Of a DNA stretch of 64,000 bases, positions 1-7,770 are shown one piece after another. A model generated the notes under the pieces. It was not told where the DNA came from, did not search any database, and saw only the letters and a list, made by a program, of their open reading frames with translations. The position numbers were made by a program, and so were the translations under genes. Numbering within the stretch: the stretch's first letter is position 1; the number at the start of each line of letters is the position of its first letter. This DNA comes from Beijerinckiaceae bacterium (GTDB lineage: Bacteria; Pseudomonadota; Alphaproteobacteria; Rhizobiales; Beijerinckiaceae). The stretch lies in contig CANGJJ010000001.1 of NCBI GenBank assembly GCA_947454485.1, positions 1 to 64,000 on the forward strand, given 5' to 3'.

Positions 1-67
1 AAATTATAAAAGTAATATTTTGATAATTATATATACAATCATTTTTAAATTAATTATTGATAATTGA
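1..67 (+). other. Ciliate subtelomeric / 5' untranslated DNA
   Basis: This stretch is extremely AT-rich and lies upstream of the ciliate gene. An in-frame TGA at 65-67, the only stop in this code, immediately precedes the chosen ATG. No C4A4 telomere is present at base 1, so the left end of the nanochromosome is missing or was trimmed. Confidence 0.7.
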
Positions 68-1402
68 ATGGAAAATTCACAAAAATAGAAAGACGAATCG
101 TAAGAAAATTAAGAGCTCACTAACCAAGAATATTAACGATATTCAAGGTAGCTTATAATGACTCAAATTGGAGTATAAGGGTAAACTTTATTAAAAAATG
201 CAAAAGTTTTGATAATAGGAGCGGGGGGCTTAGGATCTCCAGCATCTCTATATCTTTCTGGAGCAGGTGTAGGTCTCATTGGTCTAGTTGATGCTGATAT
301 TGTTGATGAATCAAATCTTCATAGATAGATAATTCATACAGAATAGCGTGTTGGAATGAATAAAACTTTAAGTGCAAAAGATTAAATAAATTAGTTCAAC
401 AAAAATACGTAAGTCATTACTTTTTAAGAAAGATTGAATAATGAAAACTGTGAAAGAATTATTGGATCAATCGATTACAAGTGGGATATAGTTATGGATG
501 GATCTGATAATCCAGCAACGAGATATTTAATAAATGATGCTTGTGTTAATTATAAAATACCATTGGTTTCTGGCAGTGCATTATAATGGGAAGGATAAAT
601 TACAGTATTAAACTATTTGGATGGACCATGCTACAGATGCCTTTATCCTAAACCTCCACCTGCCTCTGCTGTAGCTAATTGCTCTGATGGAGGAGTTCTA
701 GGGATGGTTCCAGGAATTATAGGTTAGCTGCAAGCACTTGAAATAGTAAAAATCTTGATCAAACAGCCTAAAGAGAATATATTATGGAAAAGAATGATAT
801 TTTTAGATGCACTTTAAATGAAATTTAGAAATGTTCAGTTAAGAGGATAAAACTAAAATTGTGTCGCTTGTGGTTAAAACTGTCCATAAAATGAAAGAGT
901 AGATTTTAAGACTTTTGACTATTAAGAATTTTGTCAAACAAAATGCAACAGATTTTAATTAATAAAATTGAATGAAGAAAACACTATTTCTTGTCAGAAA
1001 TTCAAAGAAATGCTAGATTAAATAAATAGTTAATAGAGTAACATTAGCTTAATAGATGTGAGACCAGATACATAGTTTAACATCACAAATACAAACAGAT
1101 CAGATATTATTTCAAAGAAACTAAATGCTATTAACATTAAAGTTAAAGACCTTGAGAAGAATTGGGACGAAATTTAAAATATTGAAAGTCTGGTCAATGC
1201 ATTTAAAGGCAAAAATTAAGTGTTTGTGATGTGTAGAAGAGGAAATGCAAGTAAAGAAGCAACTTAGTTCATTCTAAAATTACTTTAACAGCAAAAAGAA
1301 AAAGAAAGTGGTATTTTTAAAGACGTAGAGAGTGTATTAAATATCGAAGGAGGGTATGAAATGATTTCAAAATGTATTGATAATACACTTCCAATTTATT
1401 GA
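68..1402 (+). CDS. Ciliate UBA4/MOCS3-like E1 adenylyltransferase-rhodanese protein (TAA/TAG = Gln)
   Basis: Read with TAA and TAG as Gln and TGA as stop, one uninterrupted frame of 444 residues runs from ATG 68 to TGA 1400-1402 and contains about 31 reassigned TAA/TAG codons. The N-terminal half is a ThiF/MoeB/UBA4 fold: RYSRQLI, the nucleotide loop [27 protein letters not shown] and NCSDGGVLG. Two CxxC zinc-type pairs follow (CVACGQNC). The C-terminal part is a rhodanese domain with active-site loop CRRGNAS. In the family this protein adenylates and thiolates a ubiquitin-like carrier (Urm1 or MOCS2A) for tRNA thiolation or molybdopterin synthesis. No intron is apparent. The code and telomere fit hypotrich ciliates; Euplotes is excluded because it uses TGA for Cys. 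It has nothing in common with the bacterial genes that follow. Confidence 0.9.
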
Positions 1403-1455
1403 CATTAATTATCCATTTTATAGGCTTATATATATTAATATTGTTTTAAATATAA
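1403..1455 (+). other. Ciliate 3' untranslated / subtelomeric spacer
   Basis: A very AT-rich spacer of about 53 bases lies between the TGA stop and the telomere. Such short non-coding flanks are usual for gene-sized macronuclear chromosomes. Confidence 0.7.
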
Positions 1456-1493
1456 GGGGTTTTGGGGTTTTGGGGTTTTGGGGTTTTGGGGTT
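1456..1493 (+). repeat. Hypotrich ciliate telomere, (G4T4)n
   Basis: The tract is five G4 blocks separated by four T4 blocks (1456-1491), followed by TT. Its 36 bases equal the known length of the G-rich telomere strand in Oxytricha and Stylonychia. Bacterial sequence starts at 1491-1494. The exact edge is ambiguous because GTT could belong to either side. Confidence 0.92.
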
Positions 1494-1997
1494 GCGATTG
1501 ATATTCGTGAATAGGCGGCGTGTTCTCCGATTTCCTTCGGCGGTTTCGAAGTGAGAGACTACAATTACGGCAATGTCGTCCGCTCCTAGTTCGGGCTTTT
1601 GACGCACTGCGTCTTTAATAGCCTTTAATCGATGCTGACCATCGAGCGCGAAATAAGATTGGCTGCCGTCAAAAGTTAGGACACCAAATTGCCTATCAAG
1701 GCCACTAAGCATTCCATCGGGGTCTTCCATTGAAACTGGAATATAGTTAGGGTTTCCGCCGTAAACGGCTACTATTATAGCTCCGAGAAAGCGGTGCTCT
1801 GATTTCAGCAGATACTCTTTTATCGCAGCAGCCCGGTCACTTAAGCCTCGCTGTACAATGGTGCTGTAATCCTCGTTTGCTTTAATTTCGTGAGCAAAGT
1901 GTACGTTATTGGCAACCTCCGCATACTTCATGATACAGATGAAGTATTCCCAATCGCCAACTTTTGCTTCGAATGCAGGGATGAGTGTTTTTGTCAT
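1494..1997 (-). pseudogene. DGQHR-domain protein (DndB-like), cut off by the ciliate telomere
   Basis: About 168 native residues remain. They carry the diagnostic DGQHR motif at residues 119-123 and the RRLFTNINR segment that follows it in DndB-like and DGQHR-domain proteins. After NINRN the frame enters the telomere, and the last residues (PKTPKP-type) are telomere-encoded nonsense, so the C-terminal half is missing. DGQHR proteins occur in phosphorothioation (Dnd) loci as DndB and as stand-alone genes in defence islands; the role here is unknown. The ATG lies one base after the stop of the GIY-YIG gene, so the two are probably translationally coupled. GC content is lower than in the downstream chromosome. 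Confidence 0.75.
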
Positions 1998-1998
1998 T

Positions 1999-2649
1999 TC
2001 AATAGGTCCTGAATGCGGGTCGTGAGGCTTGCGGTCTAAGGGCGAGTCCCTGATGATTTCCTGGAGGGTTAAGCAATTTTATTAATCGGCTTTCAAGATT
2101 GTTAATCTTTGTTTGATCGTCGATCTGAACATACCAATATTCAATTGGTTCTAAGCTTAGGACTTTTTGAAGACGATTTTTTCGACTTGTACTTTTATCA
2201 GTAGACCAAAAAATTTCGGGGTCTTTTGCCTCAAGATATTTTCTGTATTCCTGCTTATATCGAGAGCGGAGCGTATTATTTGAATCTGCGCCAGCCTGCC
2301 CCACGTAGAGGCACCAATTGAAGAAAAAATCTGAATTATTCGAAACGTTGCCAAGCAGACGGTGCCTGACCCATATAAACATGTAGAGGCCAGGACTAGC
2401 CGGTAACATTTCTCCAAGATCAGTGGTCGCTTTTCGGCGTTCCCAATGCCCGCCGAGCCGCTGTAAATCTTCGTGAAGCGTTCGACAATACTCATCGTCT
2501 TGCAGGTATCTGACTGATGGGTTGAAGCTAATTGGCGTTGGGTTTTCGTCTGCGTGCCGAGAAATTGTTTCTCTCCAGCTACTCACGTCCACGCTCCCGA
2601 TTTCGCCGTTGATTTTAGATGGCCAGCGGCCCACGTATTCAGAGATCAA
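1999..2649 (-). CDS. GIY-YIG nuclease-like protein
   Basis: This protein of about 216 residues has a GIY-YIG-type core in its second half: PGLYMF (first motif), CLYVGQAG (second motif), the LRSRY arginine region, and a late ESRLIKLLNPPGN segment carrying the expected glutamate. GIY-YIG domains are metal-dependent single-strand nickases found in homing enzymes, restriction enzymes and UvrC. The first 90 residues match nothing I recognise. The longest frame opens with TTG without a clear ribosome site, so the true start may lie further in. It is the first gene of a two-gene unit with the DGQHR gene and is divergent from the XRE regulator, an arrangement seen in defence islands. Function in defence is inference. 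Confidence 0.6.
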   Translation of the reverse strand: MISEYVGRWPSKINGEIGSVDVSSWRETISRHADENPTPISFNPSVRYLQDDEYCRTLHEDLQRLGGHWERRKATTDLGEMLPASPGLYMFIWVRHRLLGNVSNNSDFFFNWCLYVGQAGADSNNTLRSRYKQEYRKYLEAKDPEIFWSTDKSTSRKNRLQKVLSLEPIEYWYVQIDDQTKINNLESRLIKLLNPPGNHQGLALRPQASRPAFRTY

Positions 2650-2832
2650 TATAAACGGAACGTCTCGAGCGTTGCAATTTTTTTCAATTCATGTGGCGAG
2701 ATGTGCGGTGTATGATGCGCCGGGGAAACCCTTTTCACTAGGTTCAGCCTGCGCCAATTGGGTGCCAGTTTCTGTCATGGTTGACGCGTGGTTTTTGCAT
2801 CCTCGGATATTAGTTTTTTGATTTTATGACCC

Positions 2833-2860
2833 TTGACTTACTACAATTTGTTGTCTATTA
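2833..2860 (+). promoter_or_regulatory. Candidate sigma70-type promoter of the XRE gene
   Basis: TTGACT (2833-2838) is followed after 16 bases by CTATTA (2855-2860), just before the XRE start. A short ACAA/TTGT inverted pair sits between the boxes and could be an autoregulatory operator. The wider 2,650-2,867 gap separates divergent genes and shows nothing else clear. Confidence 0.35.
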
Positions 2861-2867
2861 AGGCAAC

Positions 2868-3242
2868 ATGCATCATTTTGAGGACGAGGCCAGCTCCATC
2901 GGTGATCACCTTCGCAAGCTGCGGGAGAAGCGGGCGGCCCAGGACCGTTCGTTTTCGCTTCGACAGGTTGCTGCTCGCTGCGAGGTGACCGCCGCATATC
3001 TGTCCAGGGTTGAACGCAACGAGGTGGCCCCGCCGGGCGAGGAGACGCTTGTCAAACTCGCAGGTGAGCTCGGGGAGGACCCGGACGTCCTGCTCGCAAT
3101 GGCGGGCAAGATCTCAGCCGATCTGAGGGCGATCATCCTCGCGCGGCCACAGCTTTTTGCGGATCTCATCCGCTCGATCAAATCCATGCCTGACCATGCT
3201 GTTTTGCGCATCGTCCGGGATGTCAAAGACGGTGAATGGTAA
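2868..3242 (+). CDS. XRE-family helix-turn-helix regulator
   Basis: The protein has 124 residues. Residues about 12-75 form a lambda-Cro-type HTH (SLRQVAARCEV turn, then TAAYLSRVER as recognition helix, then EETLVKLAGEL). A C-terminal tail of about 45 residues (RPQLFADLIRSIK) probably serves dimerisation or ligand sensing. An AAGG motif precedes the ATG. The next gene starts 13 bases after its stop, so the two form an operon, and regulators of this type commonly control the gene cassette they sit in. It is divergent from the GIY-YIG/DGQHR pair and may regulate it too. Confidence 0.8.
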   Translation: MHHFEDEASSIGDHLRKLREKRAAQDRSFSLRQVAARCEVTAAYLSRVERNEVAPPGEETLVKLAGELGEDPDVLLAMAGKISADLRAIILARPQLFADLIRSIKSMPDHAVLRIVRDVKDGEW

Positions 3243-3255
3243 AAGGAGGTTTCTA

Positions 3256-4311
3256 ATGCCTACCCTTGAACACGATAGCCTCGTATTTCGCTTTCCGCAG
3301 ATTGAGAAGCAGGCGAAATTTTCGATCCAATTTCAGAGAACGCTTAGGATCCCTGACAGCGACAAGACTTACTCATTGCCGCCTGGCCTCGGTCTATTTC
3401 CCGTGCGGCACGCTGAGGATTACGTGAGCAAACTTCCTCAAGCCACAAACGATCGTGGCGGTGTCATCCTGCCAATGTGGCAGTCTGAGGCTATGTGGAT
3501 CAATTTCGAGAACGAGGGGCCAGATTGGGACCTTGAATTTCCAGTCGCAATCAAAATTGCCGCGGGCAAGATCAATGCGGTTACCGGCGAGCCTTGGAAA
3601 AACGGCTTACAAGGGGCCCCCCAAGATTATGTGGTGTCACCCAATCAACCTTGGCTTGACGGGTTCGCGGTTGAAAAAGGGGTCATTCGTCAATTCGTAG
3701 CGATGCCCCTTGGCGAGGGTTACTCGGTCGAAGAACAGCTGACGGGTGAAGCAGAGTGGGGTGGCCTGCAGATATCAGTAGCTCCATTGAAAGCCTCTGT
3801 CTGGAACAAAAAACTTGAAGCTTGGAAGCAGGCTCAAGAGGAACGAAAAAAATATTTTGCTAATGAAAGTCATCTCGTAGCCTATTCCTACTCAATGTGT
3901 GAGAGCCGCCCCATGGGACTAGCTGCTGGTGGAAAAATGCGTCAGGAAATCTACCCTGATCCGTATAATCTAGAAGACTGGGATTTCTCAGCCGCTGAGA
4001 GGGTTTTTGTAACTCTTGTTCATGCAAAAGACTGGCTTGGAATTACGGGTGAGGCCGCGCTGGACGTGCCGCCAACTGCGAGCGAATACACAAAGGCTGA
4101 CCTTCCATGGTTTGAGTATTACGGGAAAGATCAGATAGCGTTGCCTGGAGGTGAAAAATTCGGGAACATCAAATCTGTGTCGAGCATTTTCAAAAAGACG
4201 ACGGGCGCGAACTTGCCAGGCTCAGGAGATATAGCGATCGGAAAACCAATAGCAGTCGGGCCAGGTGTGAAGTGCGATCGACCAATTCAATCGAGTAAGT
4301 CTTGGGAATGA
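3256..4311 (+). CDS. Conserved protein of unknown function (351 aa)
   Basis: The ATG at 3256 follows a strong AAGGAGG site; an in-frame start 99 bases upstream lies inside the XRE gene and was rejected. I recognise the sequence pattern as a widespread uncharacterised bacterial family (segments LPPGLGLFP, KINAVTGEPW, DYVVSPNQPWLDG, IRQFVAMPLG, GGKMRQEIY), but no activity is known to me. There is no signal peptide or membrane segment, so it is probably cytoplasmic. It shares an operon with the XRE regulator. Whether it belongs to the mobile module, or is cargo of it, cannot be told from sequence. Confidence 0.6.
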   Translation: MPTLEHDSLVFRFPQIEKQAKFSIQFQRTLRIPDSDKTYSLPPGLGLFPVRHAEDYVSKLPQATNDRGGVILPMWQSEAMWINFENEGPDWDLEFPVAIKIAAGKINAVTGEPWKNGLQGAPQDYVVSPNQPWLDGFAVEKGVIRQFVAMPLGEGYSVEEQLTGEAEWGGLQISVAPLKASVWNKKLEAWKQAQEERKKYFANESHLVAYSYSMCESRPMGLAAGGKMRQEIYPDPYNLEDWDFSAAERVFVTLVHAKDWLGITGEAALDVPPTASEYTKADLPWFEYYGKDQIALPGGEKFGNIKSVSSIFKKTTGANLPGSGDIAIGKPIAVGPGVKCDRPIQSSKSWE

Positions 4312-4487
4312 CACCTTTCAAAAAGTTTCGGACAATGATCAATTTCTTGCTGGACTTCGCCTGAAAGTCGAGCATGTGTGTGCTTGTCACCTCGCGTTTT
4401 AGCAGATGGTGATCTCTTAGCCCCTGAACCGGGGCTTGTCTCAGTGAGGTGCTTGGATTGCGCCTTGCTGAAACAAAGGAGATCGCC

Positions 4488-5024
4488 ATGAACATCAAAT
4501 TTACGACCACGCAGCGCAACATGCTTTGTGTTGCTGCGCAACGTGTAGATCGCTGCCTTGGGCCTTCTGTAGATCTGAAGGGAAGTGCTGCTCGCGTATT
4601 CGCAACCAAGCTGATTGATGCTGGATTGGCGCGAGAGATTAGAGCCAAAGATGAGTTTCCTGTTTGGAGAATGGATAAAACCGCGCGGCAAAATTATAGC
4701 CTCAAGCTAACAGCTTCAGGCATTAAAGCAGCAGCAGAAAAGCAAAAAGTTGATGGACCCATTTCTGAAGCGGGATCAACTCACTCGCATCCATTGCCAA
4801 AAGAAGCATCTAAGCTTTCCAAAGTTATCCTGATGCTCTCGCAAGATGAGAGCATCACTGTCCAAGAGATTTCAAAGGCAATGGGATGGCTGCCGCATAC
4901 CACGCGCGCTGCTTTGACCGGATTGCGTAAGCGCGGCGTGAAGATCGTGAAAAATAAAATTGACGGAAAGGGAAGTTCCTCTTATCGGATTGAACACTCC
5001 TCCGAGGTCAACCTCGCGGCGTGA
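4488..5024 (+). CDS. DUF3489-domain protein
   Basis: The protein has 178 residues from the ATG at 4488, chosen for its AAAGGAG site; a longer frame from 4449 lacks one. The C-terminal 75 residues are a DUF3489 winged-helix-like unit: SKLSKVILML, then ITVQEISKAMGWLPHTTRAALTGLRKRG, read here in separate segments, and a final YRIE strand. In Alphaproteobacteria this domain is typically encoded next to DUF2924 and a serine recombinase, as here, so it is probably an accessory DNA-binding factor of the element. It abuts the DUF2924 gene (stop at 5024, next ATG at 5029). Confidence 0.75.
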   Translation: MNIKFTTTQRNMLCVAAQRVDRCLGPSVDLKGSAARVFATKLIDAGLAREIRAKDEFPVWRMDKTARQNYSLKLTASGIKAAAEKQKVDGPISEAGSTHSHPLPKEASKLSKVILMLSQDESITVQEISKAMGWLPHTTRAALTGLRKRGVKIVKNKIDGKGSSSYRIEHSSEVNLAA

Positions 5025-5028
5025 TGCC

Positions 5029-5553
5029 ATGTCATCTTTGTCGTCGATGCCTGTCGATAAGAAACTTGGACGGATGACTTTATCCGTCCCATCTTTCAGC
5101 CAGAGTGATTTGAAGCAGGAGGGCGGCTCAATTGATGATCGCCTTGAATGGCTTCGATCACTTGATCCAATCGCCCTGCGCGAAGAGTGGCGCAAGCTAA
5201 AAGCGTCTGACCCGCCTAGGCTCAGTCGGGATCTGATGCTGCGATCCCTCGCCTATGCCCTACAGGCAGAAGCCTTTGGGGGATTATCTCCCGCTGCAAT
5301 CAGAAAGCTCGAAACCTCAACTGAGGGAGTGAGCGGAGCTTCCCAAAATGCTGAACAGCAAAAGTCCAATCTTTCTGCCGGAGCCCGTTTAGTGCGTGAA
5401 TGGCATGGACGGACCTATAGCATTGAGGTCGTCCAAGAAGGCTTCCTCTTTGGGGGCAAGACTTATCGCTCCCTCTCTGAAATCGCCCGCAAGATCACAG
5501 GCTCGCACTGGTCGGGTCCCCGGTTCTTCGGGCTCGTGAAAAAAGGAAGGTGA
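5029..5553 (+). CDS. DUF2924-domain protein
   Basis: The protein has 174 residues from the ATG at 5029, chosen because it begins just after the preceding stop. The C-terminal half shows the DUF2924 pattern: GARLVREWHG, FLFGGKTYRSLSEIA and SGPRFFGL, with a small, probably nucleic-acid-related fold. Its stop overlaps the region just before the recombinase start, so DUF3489, DUF2924 and the recombinase form one tightly packed operon. This three-gene order recurs in alphaproteobacterial islands. The biochemical role of DUF2924 is unknown to me. Confidence 0.75.
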   Translation: MSSLSSMPVDKKLGRMTLSVPSFSQSDLKQEGGSIDDRLEWLRSLDPIALREEWRKLKASDPPRLSRDLMLRSLAYALQAEAFGGLSPAAIRKLETSTEGVSGASQNAEQQKSNLSAGARLVREWHGRTYSIEVVQEGFLFGGKTYRSLSEIARKITGSHWSGPRFFGLVKKGR

Positions 5554-5561
5554 GGACACTC

Positions 5562-7283
5562 ATGTCACAGTCTGTCACCCGGCAAAAGATCCGCTGCGCG
5601 ATCTACACCCGAAAGTCCTCCGAAGAGGGGCTCGACCAAGAGTTCAATTCTCTAGATGCGCAACGCGAAGCCTGTGAGGCCTATATCAAGAGCCAGCGGC
5701 ATGAGGGCTGGGTCATCATTCCAACCCTTTATGATGATCCTGCCTATTCTGGCGGCAATATGGATCGCCCTGCCCTGAAACGGCTCCTTGCCGATATCGA
5801 AGGTGGGTTTATTGATACGGTCGTCGTCTACAAAGTCGATCGCCTGACCCGTGCCTTGGCGGACTTTGCCAAGATCGTGGAGGCTTTTGATGCCAAGGGC
5901 GTTTCTTTCGTCTCGGTGACCCAGGCCTTCAATACGACCACCAGCATGGGGCGACTGACGCTCAATGTTCTTTTGTCATTCGCCCAGTTTGAGCGGGAAG
6001 TTACAGGCGAGCGCATTCGGGACAAGATTGCAGCATCCAAGAAGAAGGGCATGTGGATGGGTGGATTGCCGCCACTCGGCTTCGATATCCAAGACCGCAA
6101 GCTCATCGTGAATGAGGCGGAAACTGAAACCCTCCGGCATATTTTTAGGCGTTACTGTGCGTTAGGCTCTGTCCGCGAACTCCAGAGAGAGCTGGAAGTG
6201 AGCAAGATCTTCAGTAAGGCAAGGATAAGCTCGTCAGGCCAGCACTATGGGGGAAAGCCATTTTCGAGGGGCGCCCTGTACCAACTGCTCCAAAACAAAA
6301 TCTATATTGGCCTCACAACGCATAGAGGTGAATCCTATACCGGAGAACATGCAGCTATAGTTGATCAGGACCTTTGGGAGGCAACACAAAACATTCTAAT
6401 TAAAAACCGTGTCAGTCGGCGCGCGATAGAAGAACACAGCTCGAAGAAACTAACGGGCATTGTCTTCGATGCGTCAGGGGAAGCCATGACCCCTTCACAT
6501 GCCAGCAAAAATGGGGTTCGCTATCGCTATTACATTTCGAGGTCGCTGACCAAAAACTGCAAAACCGAGCATCCTGATGCGCAGCGCGTTCCTGCAACTC
6601 TGCTTGAAGAGCTTGTAATCACTCGTCTCAAACACTTTCTAAACGACCCAAAGCAAGTTTTGGATGCATTGCCTAAACCTTTCCAAGTAGCCACGTTCCA
6701 ATTGAACCTGAACAAAGGCCTAAAGGGTCTACTGAGTAAGATCGAACAAAACCCATCCACCTGCTGGGAAGCTTTGATCCTAGCTTTTCTAAAACGAGTT
6801 CAGATACATCGCGATCGGGTTGACATCGAACTCGACGGCTTTGAACTCGTCCATAAAATCTTTGGTGAACATGCAGCATCGGTTGCAGACGAAGATGATC
6901 CAAGCGGCGCGACGATCAAGTTATCTATTCCTGCCACCCTGAAGCGTACGGGCAAGGAGCTGAAGTTCATTGTTCCAAGTGCGACGGCTAATGCAACGGC
7001 AGATCAATCGCTTATCAAACTCCTAGTGCGCGCTCGCGCGCTGCAGACTGCAATCGAAGGTTCGGGAAGCGTCTCCATTGAGGAAATTGCATCCTCCCAA
7101 AATCTAACGCCCTCGTATGTGGCGCGTTTGATGCGCCTTAATTTCCTGGCTCCTGACATTGTCGAAGCCATTGTTGCAGGTCGGCAGCCCCCAGAACTCT
7201 CAGCAAACAAGCTGATGAAAGACACTCGGTTTCCGCTCAATTGGCACGAGCAGCGCCACGCCCTTGGGTTTACGCAGGCCTAA
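5562..7283 (+). CDS. Large serine recombinase
   Basis: The protein has 573 residues. The N-terminal resolvase/invertase catalytic domain (about 1-150) contains YTRKSSEEG with catalytic Ser19, DDPAYSGG, YKVDRLTR and FAQFEREVTGERIRDK. The recombinase domain follows (about 170-290, GGLPPLGFD, GALYQLLQNKIYIG). The zinc ribbon of classical integrases is not evident, as in many alphaproteobacterial homologues paired with DUF2924. The ATG at 5562 is preferred over a GTG at 5550 because GGAAGG ends at 5550. It would catalyse site-specific integration, excision or inversion. No att repeats could be identified with confidence. Confidence 0.88.
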   Translation: MSQSVTRQKIRCAIYTRKSSEEGLDQEFNSLDAQREACEAYIKSQRHEGWVIIPTLYDDPAYSGGNMDRPALKRLLADIEGGFIDTVVVYKVDRLTRALADFAKIVEAFDAKGVSFVSVTQAFNTTTSMGRLTLNVLLSFAQFEREVTGERIRDKIAASKKKGMWMGGLPPLGFDIQDRKLIVNEAETETLRHIFRRYCALGSVRELQRELEVSKIFSKARISSSGQHYGGKPFSRGALYQLLQNKIYIGLTTHRGESYTGEHAAIVDQDLWEATQNILIKNRVSRRAIEEHSSKKLTGIVFDASGEAMTPSHASKNGVRYRYYISRSLTKNCKTEHPDAQRVPATLLEELVITRLKHFLNDPKQVLDALPKPFQVATFQLNLNKGLKGLLSKIEQNPSTCWEALILAFLKRVQIHRDRVDIELDGFELVHKIFGEHAASVADEDDPSGATIKLSIPATLKRTGKELKFIVPSATANATADQSLIKLLVRARALQTAIEGSGSVSIEEIASSQNLTPSYVARLMRLNFLAPDIVEAIVAGRQPPELSANKLMKDTRFPLNWHEQRHALGFTQA

Positions 7284-7558: not shown

Positions 7559-7648
7559 TGGCGGAGGGAGCGGGATTCGAACCCGCGATACGGTTTCCCG
7601 TATACACACTTTCCAGGCGTGCGCCTTCAACCACTCGGCCACCCCTCC
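7559..7648 (-). tRNA. tRNA-Ser (anticodon GGA)
   Basis: The 90-base gene folds as a class II tRNA. The acceptor stem GGAGGGG pairs with TCCCTCC, the discriminator is G, and CCA is encoded. The anticodon loop CTGGAAA gives anticodon GGA (plus-strand 7612-7614). There is a long variable arm and a T arm with GGTTCGAATCC. It reads UCC and UCU serine codons. Its 3' end faces the recombinase-bearing island, and its 5' half is repeated 91 bases away. Confidence 0.95.
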
Positions 7649-7679
7649 GCAGCGTGCTTGAGGCGCACGCAAAACCTTT
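7620..7679. repeat. Tandem repeat copy 1 (tRNA-Ser 5' half plus leader)
   Basis: This block of about 60 bases is repeated at an offset of 91 (7711-7770) with only a few mismatches. It spans the 5' half of tRNA-Ser and a leader that contains the inverted repeat GCGTGC/GCACGC followed by AAAACCTTT. Confidence 0.85.
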
Positions 7680-7710
7680 ATCTTGAGGGACGGTCGCCGA
7701 AGGCGACCTG

Positions 7711-7770
7711 TGCGCCTTCGACCATTCGGCCACCCCTCCGCTGCGTGCTTGAGGCGCACGCAAAACCTTT
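7711..7770. repeat. Tandem repeat copy 2 with truncated tRNA-Ser remnant
   Basis: This is the second copy of the 60-base block. Its tRNA part (7711-7739, minus strand) keeps the acceptor 5' strand and D-arm of tRNA-Ser but then diverges, so it cannot fold into a tRNA and is a pseudo-tRNA remnant. It could come from unequal recombination or from past integration at the tRNA. Confidence 0.75.

Follow-up and report, generated by a model that had tools for sequence, protein, structure and literature searches.

Contig C1 of this Beijerinckiaceae genome begins with DNA that ends in a ciliate-type telomere and is followed directly by a bacterial gene. This raises the question of whether the junction records an event in a living cell or was made during sequencing and assembly. 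The window that we analysed is a 64,000-base stretch, bases 1–64000 of C1, and its position 1 is the start of the contig, so the ciliate piece forms the start of C1. The contig is 591,985 bases long and the genome comprises 3,287,454 bases in 20 contigs, rated 98.57% complete. The evidence leaves us almost certain that the join is an artefact, of the laboratory or of assembly, and not biology.

The ciliate side and its telomere

The telomere G strand, G4(T4G4)4, lies on the plus strand at 1456–1491, with its 3′ tip toward the bacterial DNA. Sequence and pattern search both agree with the preliminary description on this 36-nt tract, but not on its extension of the telomere to 1497, because bases 1492–1497 are bacterial or shared. 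The TT at 1492–1493 lengthens the perfect repeat from 36 to 38 nt. There are 4 overlapping matches to GGGGTTTTGGGG in the window, whereas 100 shuffles of it gave none (mean 0.00, largest 0). By an independent-base estimate, the chance expectation for a 36-mer in 3.29 Mb is approximately 2e-15, and the exact 20-base G4T4 pattern occurs at a single place in the 3.29-Mb, 20-contig genome, inside the 1456–1491 tract.

The plus strand at 68–1402 is open for 444 codons under genetic code table 6, in which TAA and TAG encode glutamine (22 TAA and 9 TAG, 31 in all), and the frame stops at TGA; the longest frame on this side under table 11 is 55 codons. The 444-aa protein matches Pfam ThiF (E = 1.7e-76) and Rhodanese (E = 4.6e-07), a predicted domain combination that is the MOCS3/UBA4 layout, and its best solved relative is uba4 (6yub, E = 3.5e-63). 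On the table 6 frame, the Pfam matches and this structural relative, we annotate the frame as a ciliate nuclear gene for a putative MOCS3/UBA4-type adenylyltransferase-sulfurtransferase. The bacterium has its own MoeB-like gene at C1:134915–135646, the product of which is 42% identical to the ciliate-side protein. The gene is flanked on the plus strand by an AT-rich 5′ flank at 1–67, where C1 starts, and by a 53-base AT-rich 3′ flank or subtelomere at 1403–1455. The 67 bases before the ATG contain no C4A4, so this piece lacks the second telomere of a complete nanochromosome.

The T4G4 G strand runs 5′ to 3′ toward the end of the piece, and TAA and TAG are read as glutamine with TGA as the stop, as in spirotrich nanochromosomes. 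The use of UAR for glutamine with UGA as a stop does not fit the Euplotes code. Like an Oxytricha-type hypotrich or spirotrich nanochromosome, the piece combines T4G4 repeats, a single gene that is intronless in its open frame, this same code and a short AT-rich subtelomere; it differs in that the left telomere is missing and the tip is joined to bacterial DNA. We read positions 1–1491, from these sequence features, as most of a spirotrich nanochromosome, with its right end in the correct orientation and its left end missing. A blastn search with the ciliate part found no match at E 1e-3 among the fetched loci, the seven own-genome loci containing all or part of it being set aside, so the same nanochromosome was not seen elsewhere among them.

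The preliminary description had called the tract a telomere of full known hypotrich length. This agrees with Oxytricha, for which the portion of PMC6778790 on which we rely gives 20-bp double-stranded telomeres on synthetic chromosomes and overhangs of 16 bases, together equal to the 36 nt found here. In our survey of public contigs, the 91 terminal tracts among the loci listed range from 20 to 44 nt, with 20–22 nt in 56 and 36 nt in 4, and 36 nt therefore falls inside the range of assembled terminal tracts, though it is not the usual length. End repair is expected to trim a 16-base 3′ overhang and leave 20 bp. The presence of the full 36 nt despite this expected trimming counts against the artefact reading and would imply either that the C strand was filled in or that the duplex part is longer in this ciliate.

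The join and its bacterial side

The bacterial DNA begins beyond the 3′ tip of the G strand, and the ciliate gene lies on the other side of the tract. What follows the tip is the 5′ part of a DndB/DGQHR-domain gene on the minus strand (1494–1997), of which 168 codons are present before the gene breaks at the join. Codon 168 has its last base at 1494, and AAC, at positions 1493–1491, follows it. This codon is made by two T and one G, so that the TT, and perhaps one G, can be assigned to either side, leaving 2–3 bases, (G)TT at 1491–1493, that fit both the telomere repeat and the asparagine codon; there is no run of N. Bacterial coding sequence had been described as starting within three bases of the tract: the two do adjoin, but with no spacer, the frame reaching the tract directly. 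Two unrelated sequences thus abut at a natural DNA end and have next to no homology there, as expected of a chimera. A comparison of GC on the two sides, proposed in the preliminary description, gives 0.26–0.32 in 100-base bins over 1001–1500 against 0.42–0.50 over 1501–2100, with the bin at 2101–2200 at 0.32; the ciliate side is near 0.28 and bacterial coding sequence at 0.47–0.53. Under table 11 a false 183-aa frame appears on the minus strand at 1446–1997, the C terminus of which is translated telomere and subtelomere.

The 168 residues are like DndB/DGQHR proteins in matching the Pfam DndB profile (PF14072, positions 1–149 of 338), TIGR03187 (positions 4–147 of 276) and PADLOC DndB. They differ in that the gene is cut at the join, with about half of the profile missing and the domain accordingly not of full length, and the equivalog TIGR03233 scores 49.1 against a cut-off of 328. 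No other PF14072 match, including the missing half of the gene, was found in the genome at E ≤ 1. Nine other matches to the DndB piece in a class-wide search lie in open frames of 377–593 aa; the four related frames that were read through (L156, L157, L158 and L161) are 380–459 aa, the remaining five loci not having been read in the right frame. Besides the genome itself, relatives of the piece occur in 0 of 60 related genomes, in 8 of 384 other genomes of the class and in 8 plasmid records, where the best match covers the whole query at 38% identity. No dnd family was matched by the remaining island proteins that were scanned, and among viral contigs no relative of either the ciliate or the bacterial side was confirmed.

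Further along the plus strand, Pfam identifies DUF3489, DUF2924 and large serine recombinase genes (4449–7283) of a presumed mobile island, which lies at the 3′ end of a tRNA-Ser (GGA) on the minus strand at 7559–7648. A paralogous module occupies the left end of contig C2 (G000:C2:476-3262, L204) by tRNA-Ser(CGA), its proteins being 60.7, 59.6 and 75.9% identical to those of the window. Both contigs therefore have their left end in or near such an island, and the two DUF3489–DUF2924–serine recombinase modules look like members of one integrative-element family that sits at tRNA-Ser genes, as judged by their sequence and position.

Synteny across tRNA-Ser(GGA) was compared in 7 relatives and the genome's own C2 using frames of at least 80 aa, some of the stretches being short where contigs end. 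Among the matches listed, no protein on the island side is shared with the relatives at E 1e-10, the exceptions being frames that overlap the tRNA and one weak match (26%) between a G001 frame and a window frame on the other side of the tRNA. A search for a second att copy returned the tRNA itself, the tRNA-Ser(CGA) locus on C2, a partial copy at 7710, two 73–76% matches over the tRNA (C8 and C1) and weak short matches. The 5′ part of the tRNA-Ser and its upstream flank form a 61-base direct repeat (7619–7679 and 7710–7770, 95% identical), and partial copies of this repeat also sit beside the same tRNA in two relatives (G003 and G016).

Origin of the join

An artificial join of a natural DNA end, favoured in the preliminary description, is supported by the polarity of the repeat, its position at a contig end and the other public contigs described below. 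We infer that a spirotrich macronuclear nanochromosome was present in the same sample and that its right telomere tip was joined in vitro to a broken bacterial DNA end, ligation or amplification in library preparation being the likeliest step. The left end of C1, at which the bacterial path was breaking inside the mobile island, would then have been extended into the chimera by the assembler. A chimeric molecule of this kind is the probable origin of the join.

Several lines of evidence argue that the join is an artefact. In an assembly of 20 contigs, a long one opens with 1,455 bases of ciliate sequence; the two sides are foreign to each other in code and GC, and the bacterium carries a MoeB-like gene of its own. 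The break in the DndB gene falls mid-domain, the polarity is tip-to-end and the two sides share only 2–3 bases. The genome has no Ku match (below), and the same pattern recurs in other public contigs. The assembly is also MAG-like, as marked by two features: no 16S rRNA match was found in the genome, by a search that was positive in 9 of 14 control genomes, and contig ends overlap by a short 29–149 bases. Against this, a short-read assembler normally discards one chimeric read, so the artefact reading has to suppose several copies of the chimera or very shallow coverage of the true bacterial path.

Ciliate ends would be abundant partners for such joining. The portion of PMC3558436 available to us puts the telomeres of each Oxytricha macronucleus at tens of millions, which would make ciliate ends a very common end-joining partner in samples with such ciliates. 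Bacterial bins have been obtained from ciliate cells amplified by MDA or MALBAC, according to the section of PMC11127453 that we draw on; such amplification is a setting in which chimeras of this type could arise, and nothing links this genome to that study.

An artefact could also have arisen without a chimeric molecule, if two graph dead ends or contigs were merged by scaffolding, gap closing or contig merging. Such a merge would suit three observations: the ciliate stretch lies at the very start of C1, overlaps between contig ends vary in length, and the island where the bacterial path breaks has a paralogous counterpart module at the left end of C2. Against it, there are only 2–3 shared bases and no run of N at the join, and the candidate joins elsewhere are also at the telomere tip, pointing to real DNA ends that were joined. 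A join with no usable overlap makes a purely computational merge less likely than a chimeric molecule, and we give it about one chance in four.

Capture in the cell is very improbable; it would have required end-to-end joining of a nanochromosome to a chromosome break in the bacterium, for instance once linear ciliate DNA had been taken up. The sequence itself is compatible with it, a single in vivo joint would look alike from one side, and linear ciliate DNA can be plentiful near bacteria given the telomere numbers in PMC3558436, as far as the portion we draw on states them. Ku (PF02735), though, had 0 matches at E ≤ 0.1 in this genome rated 98.57% complete, which gives no sign of bacterial non-homologous end joining; among 14 control genomes the search matched in two, those of B. 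subtilis and Thermotoga maritima, with one of them over the cut-off. The ciliate gene has moreover retained its own code, one not expected to be readable in the bacterium, and no left telomere or second joint appears before the ciliate stretch runs out at the contig end. The broken DndB gene and the contig-end position are as an artefact predicts, and candidate joins of this kind are also seen in MAGs that carry the labels of other phyla. If capture were true, a ciliate nanochromosome would now be carried by a bacterial replicon. The preliminary description had held that neither addition of a telomere to bacterial DNA nor its capture could be discounted from the sequence; this stands, at that low probability, for end-to-end capture and falls for addition.

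A native bacterial repeat that merely resembles a telomere is exceedingly unlikely: G4T4-like arrays do exist inside bacterial contigs, for example in Saprospiraceae JALHQW and in Microcystis, but the tract here is flanked by a eukaryotic-type gene in ciliate code, has the correct telomere polarity and holds the only exact 20-base pattern in the genome, and the flanking ciliate gene contradicts this reading. The chance that ciliate telomerase capped a bacterial DNA piece in the macronucleus is negligible, although some weakly supported telomere sites have been proposed as healing of broken nanochromosomes (in the portion of PMC3558436 that we draw on), because telomerase addition at a bacterial left end would read C4A4 on the plus strand where G4T4 is read, the repeat running toward the bacterial DNA instead of outward from it; the ciliate gene lies on the other side, and the contig measures 592 kb, its genome being rated 98.57% complete. 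Addition is therefore excluded and the structure is an end-to-end join.

Telomere-tip joins in other public contigs

A scan for G4T4G4T4G4 found at least 114 stretches in GTDB contigs and 16 in viral contigs. The 130 loci listed hold 153 tracts, 91 of them with fewer than 30 bases beyond the tip, 59 interior (at least 30 bases on both sides) and 3 neither. We called a flank ciliate-coded when its longest table 6 frame was at least 120 codons and at least twice the longest table 11 frame. By this rule 8 of the 59 interior tracts are ciliate-coded only 5′ of the G strand (L019, L048, L068, L086, L103, L107, L112 and L131); L086, from an isolate Microcystis genome, is taken as native, leaving 7. 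A GC rise of at least 0.10 across the tip is seen in 13 of 59, or 11 after dropping the isolates L025 and L044.

With isolates dropped, 14 of the loci listed are candidate joins of the same polarity by either rule: L007, L018, L019, L026, L039, L048, L065, L068, L097, L103, L104, L107, L112 and L131. All of them lie in 12 MAGs (L019 and L107 belong to the same bin) and an IMG/VR contig (L131), and their labels span several phyla. Both rules are crude; by code L103 is forward, by GC backward. Reversed cases count against an artefact: 2 of 59 by code (L004 and L056, both MAGs) and 6 of 59 by a GC fall, or 3 without the isolates L033, L038 and L061, namely L049, L066 and L103, the last also forward by code.

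Candidate joins (for example L019, L026, L048, L104, L107, L112 and L131) resemble the one studied here in having a ciliate-coded or AT-rich piece that ends in G4T4, with bacterial-type reading frames in the DNA that follows its tip directly. They differ in that their tracts are 20–35 nt against 36 (38) here, and the contig here is far longer (592 kb). A Pfam check covered 20 proteins from 12 of the 14 loci (not L018 or L039) plus L084; 12 matched, two of them below the cut-off (TPR in L068 and DUF5689 in L103), and 8 did not. Ciliate-side proteins read with UAR as glutamine gave Vps26 (L019), a UPF1 zinc-binding domain (L112) and the TPR match, and those of L048, L097, L103, L107 and L131 had no Pfam match. 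On the bacterial side, a sulfatase begins at the join without profile positions 1–212 (L026), an epimerase ends at the join after profile position 54 (L048) and the frame of an ABC transporter runs open into the join (L104). Other matches on this side were an NAD-dependent ligase (L131), a histidine kinase (L068), VanZ (L107), DUF5906 (L019), PKD_6 (L065) and, just below the cut-off, DUF5689 (L103); the other-side proteins of L007, L084 and L097 had no Pfam match.

Similar tip joins thus seem, by these rules, to occur in other public bacterial assemblies, and recurrence in bins labelled as different phyla is better explained by a technical cause than by a trait of this bacterium. Judging by titles and the starts of abstracts among the matches listed, we found no report of telomere-tip joins between ciliate and bacterial contigs. 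The ciliate–bacterial join probably does not exist as a biological feature, and its value is documentary, as a warning. Natural ends are plentiful in ciliate nanochromosomes. Through joins at these tips, eukaryotic genes can enter bacterial reference genomes and could there pass for transferred genes; scanning bacterial contigs for internal G4T4 tracts would reveal such joins.

The scan also returned tracts of other kinds. Apparently native interior G4T4-like arrays, perfect for up to 95 nt, are present in L045 and L085 (Saprospiraceae JALHQW MAG) and in several Microcystis loci. L123 (IMG/VR 3300027904_000479, positions 1–4121), filed as viral, has 36-nt T4G4 telomeres at both ends. Its single frame of 1274 codons contains no TAA or TAG and encodes gyrase B, Toprim, TOPRIM_C and topoisomerase IV A domains, the combination found in eukaryotic topoisomerase II; from this organization L123 looks like a complete ciliate nanochromosome. 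The GTDB genome JARLIC01, labelled Paceibacterota, contains contigs of GC 0.54–0.57 with T4G4 telomeres at one or both ends (L009, L010, L051, L063, L070, L074, L108 and L109), with an SMC gene in L063 and no Pfam match in L051. These contigs are probably misbinned nanochromosomes of a high-GC ciliate.
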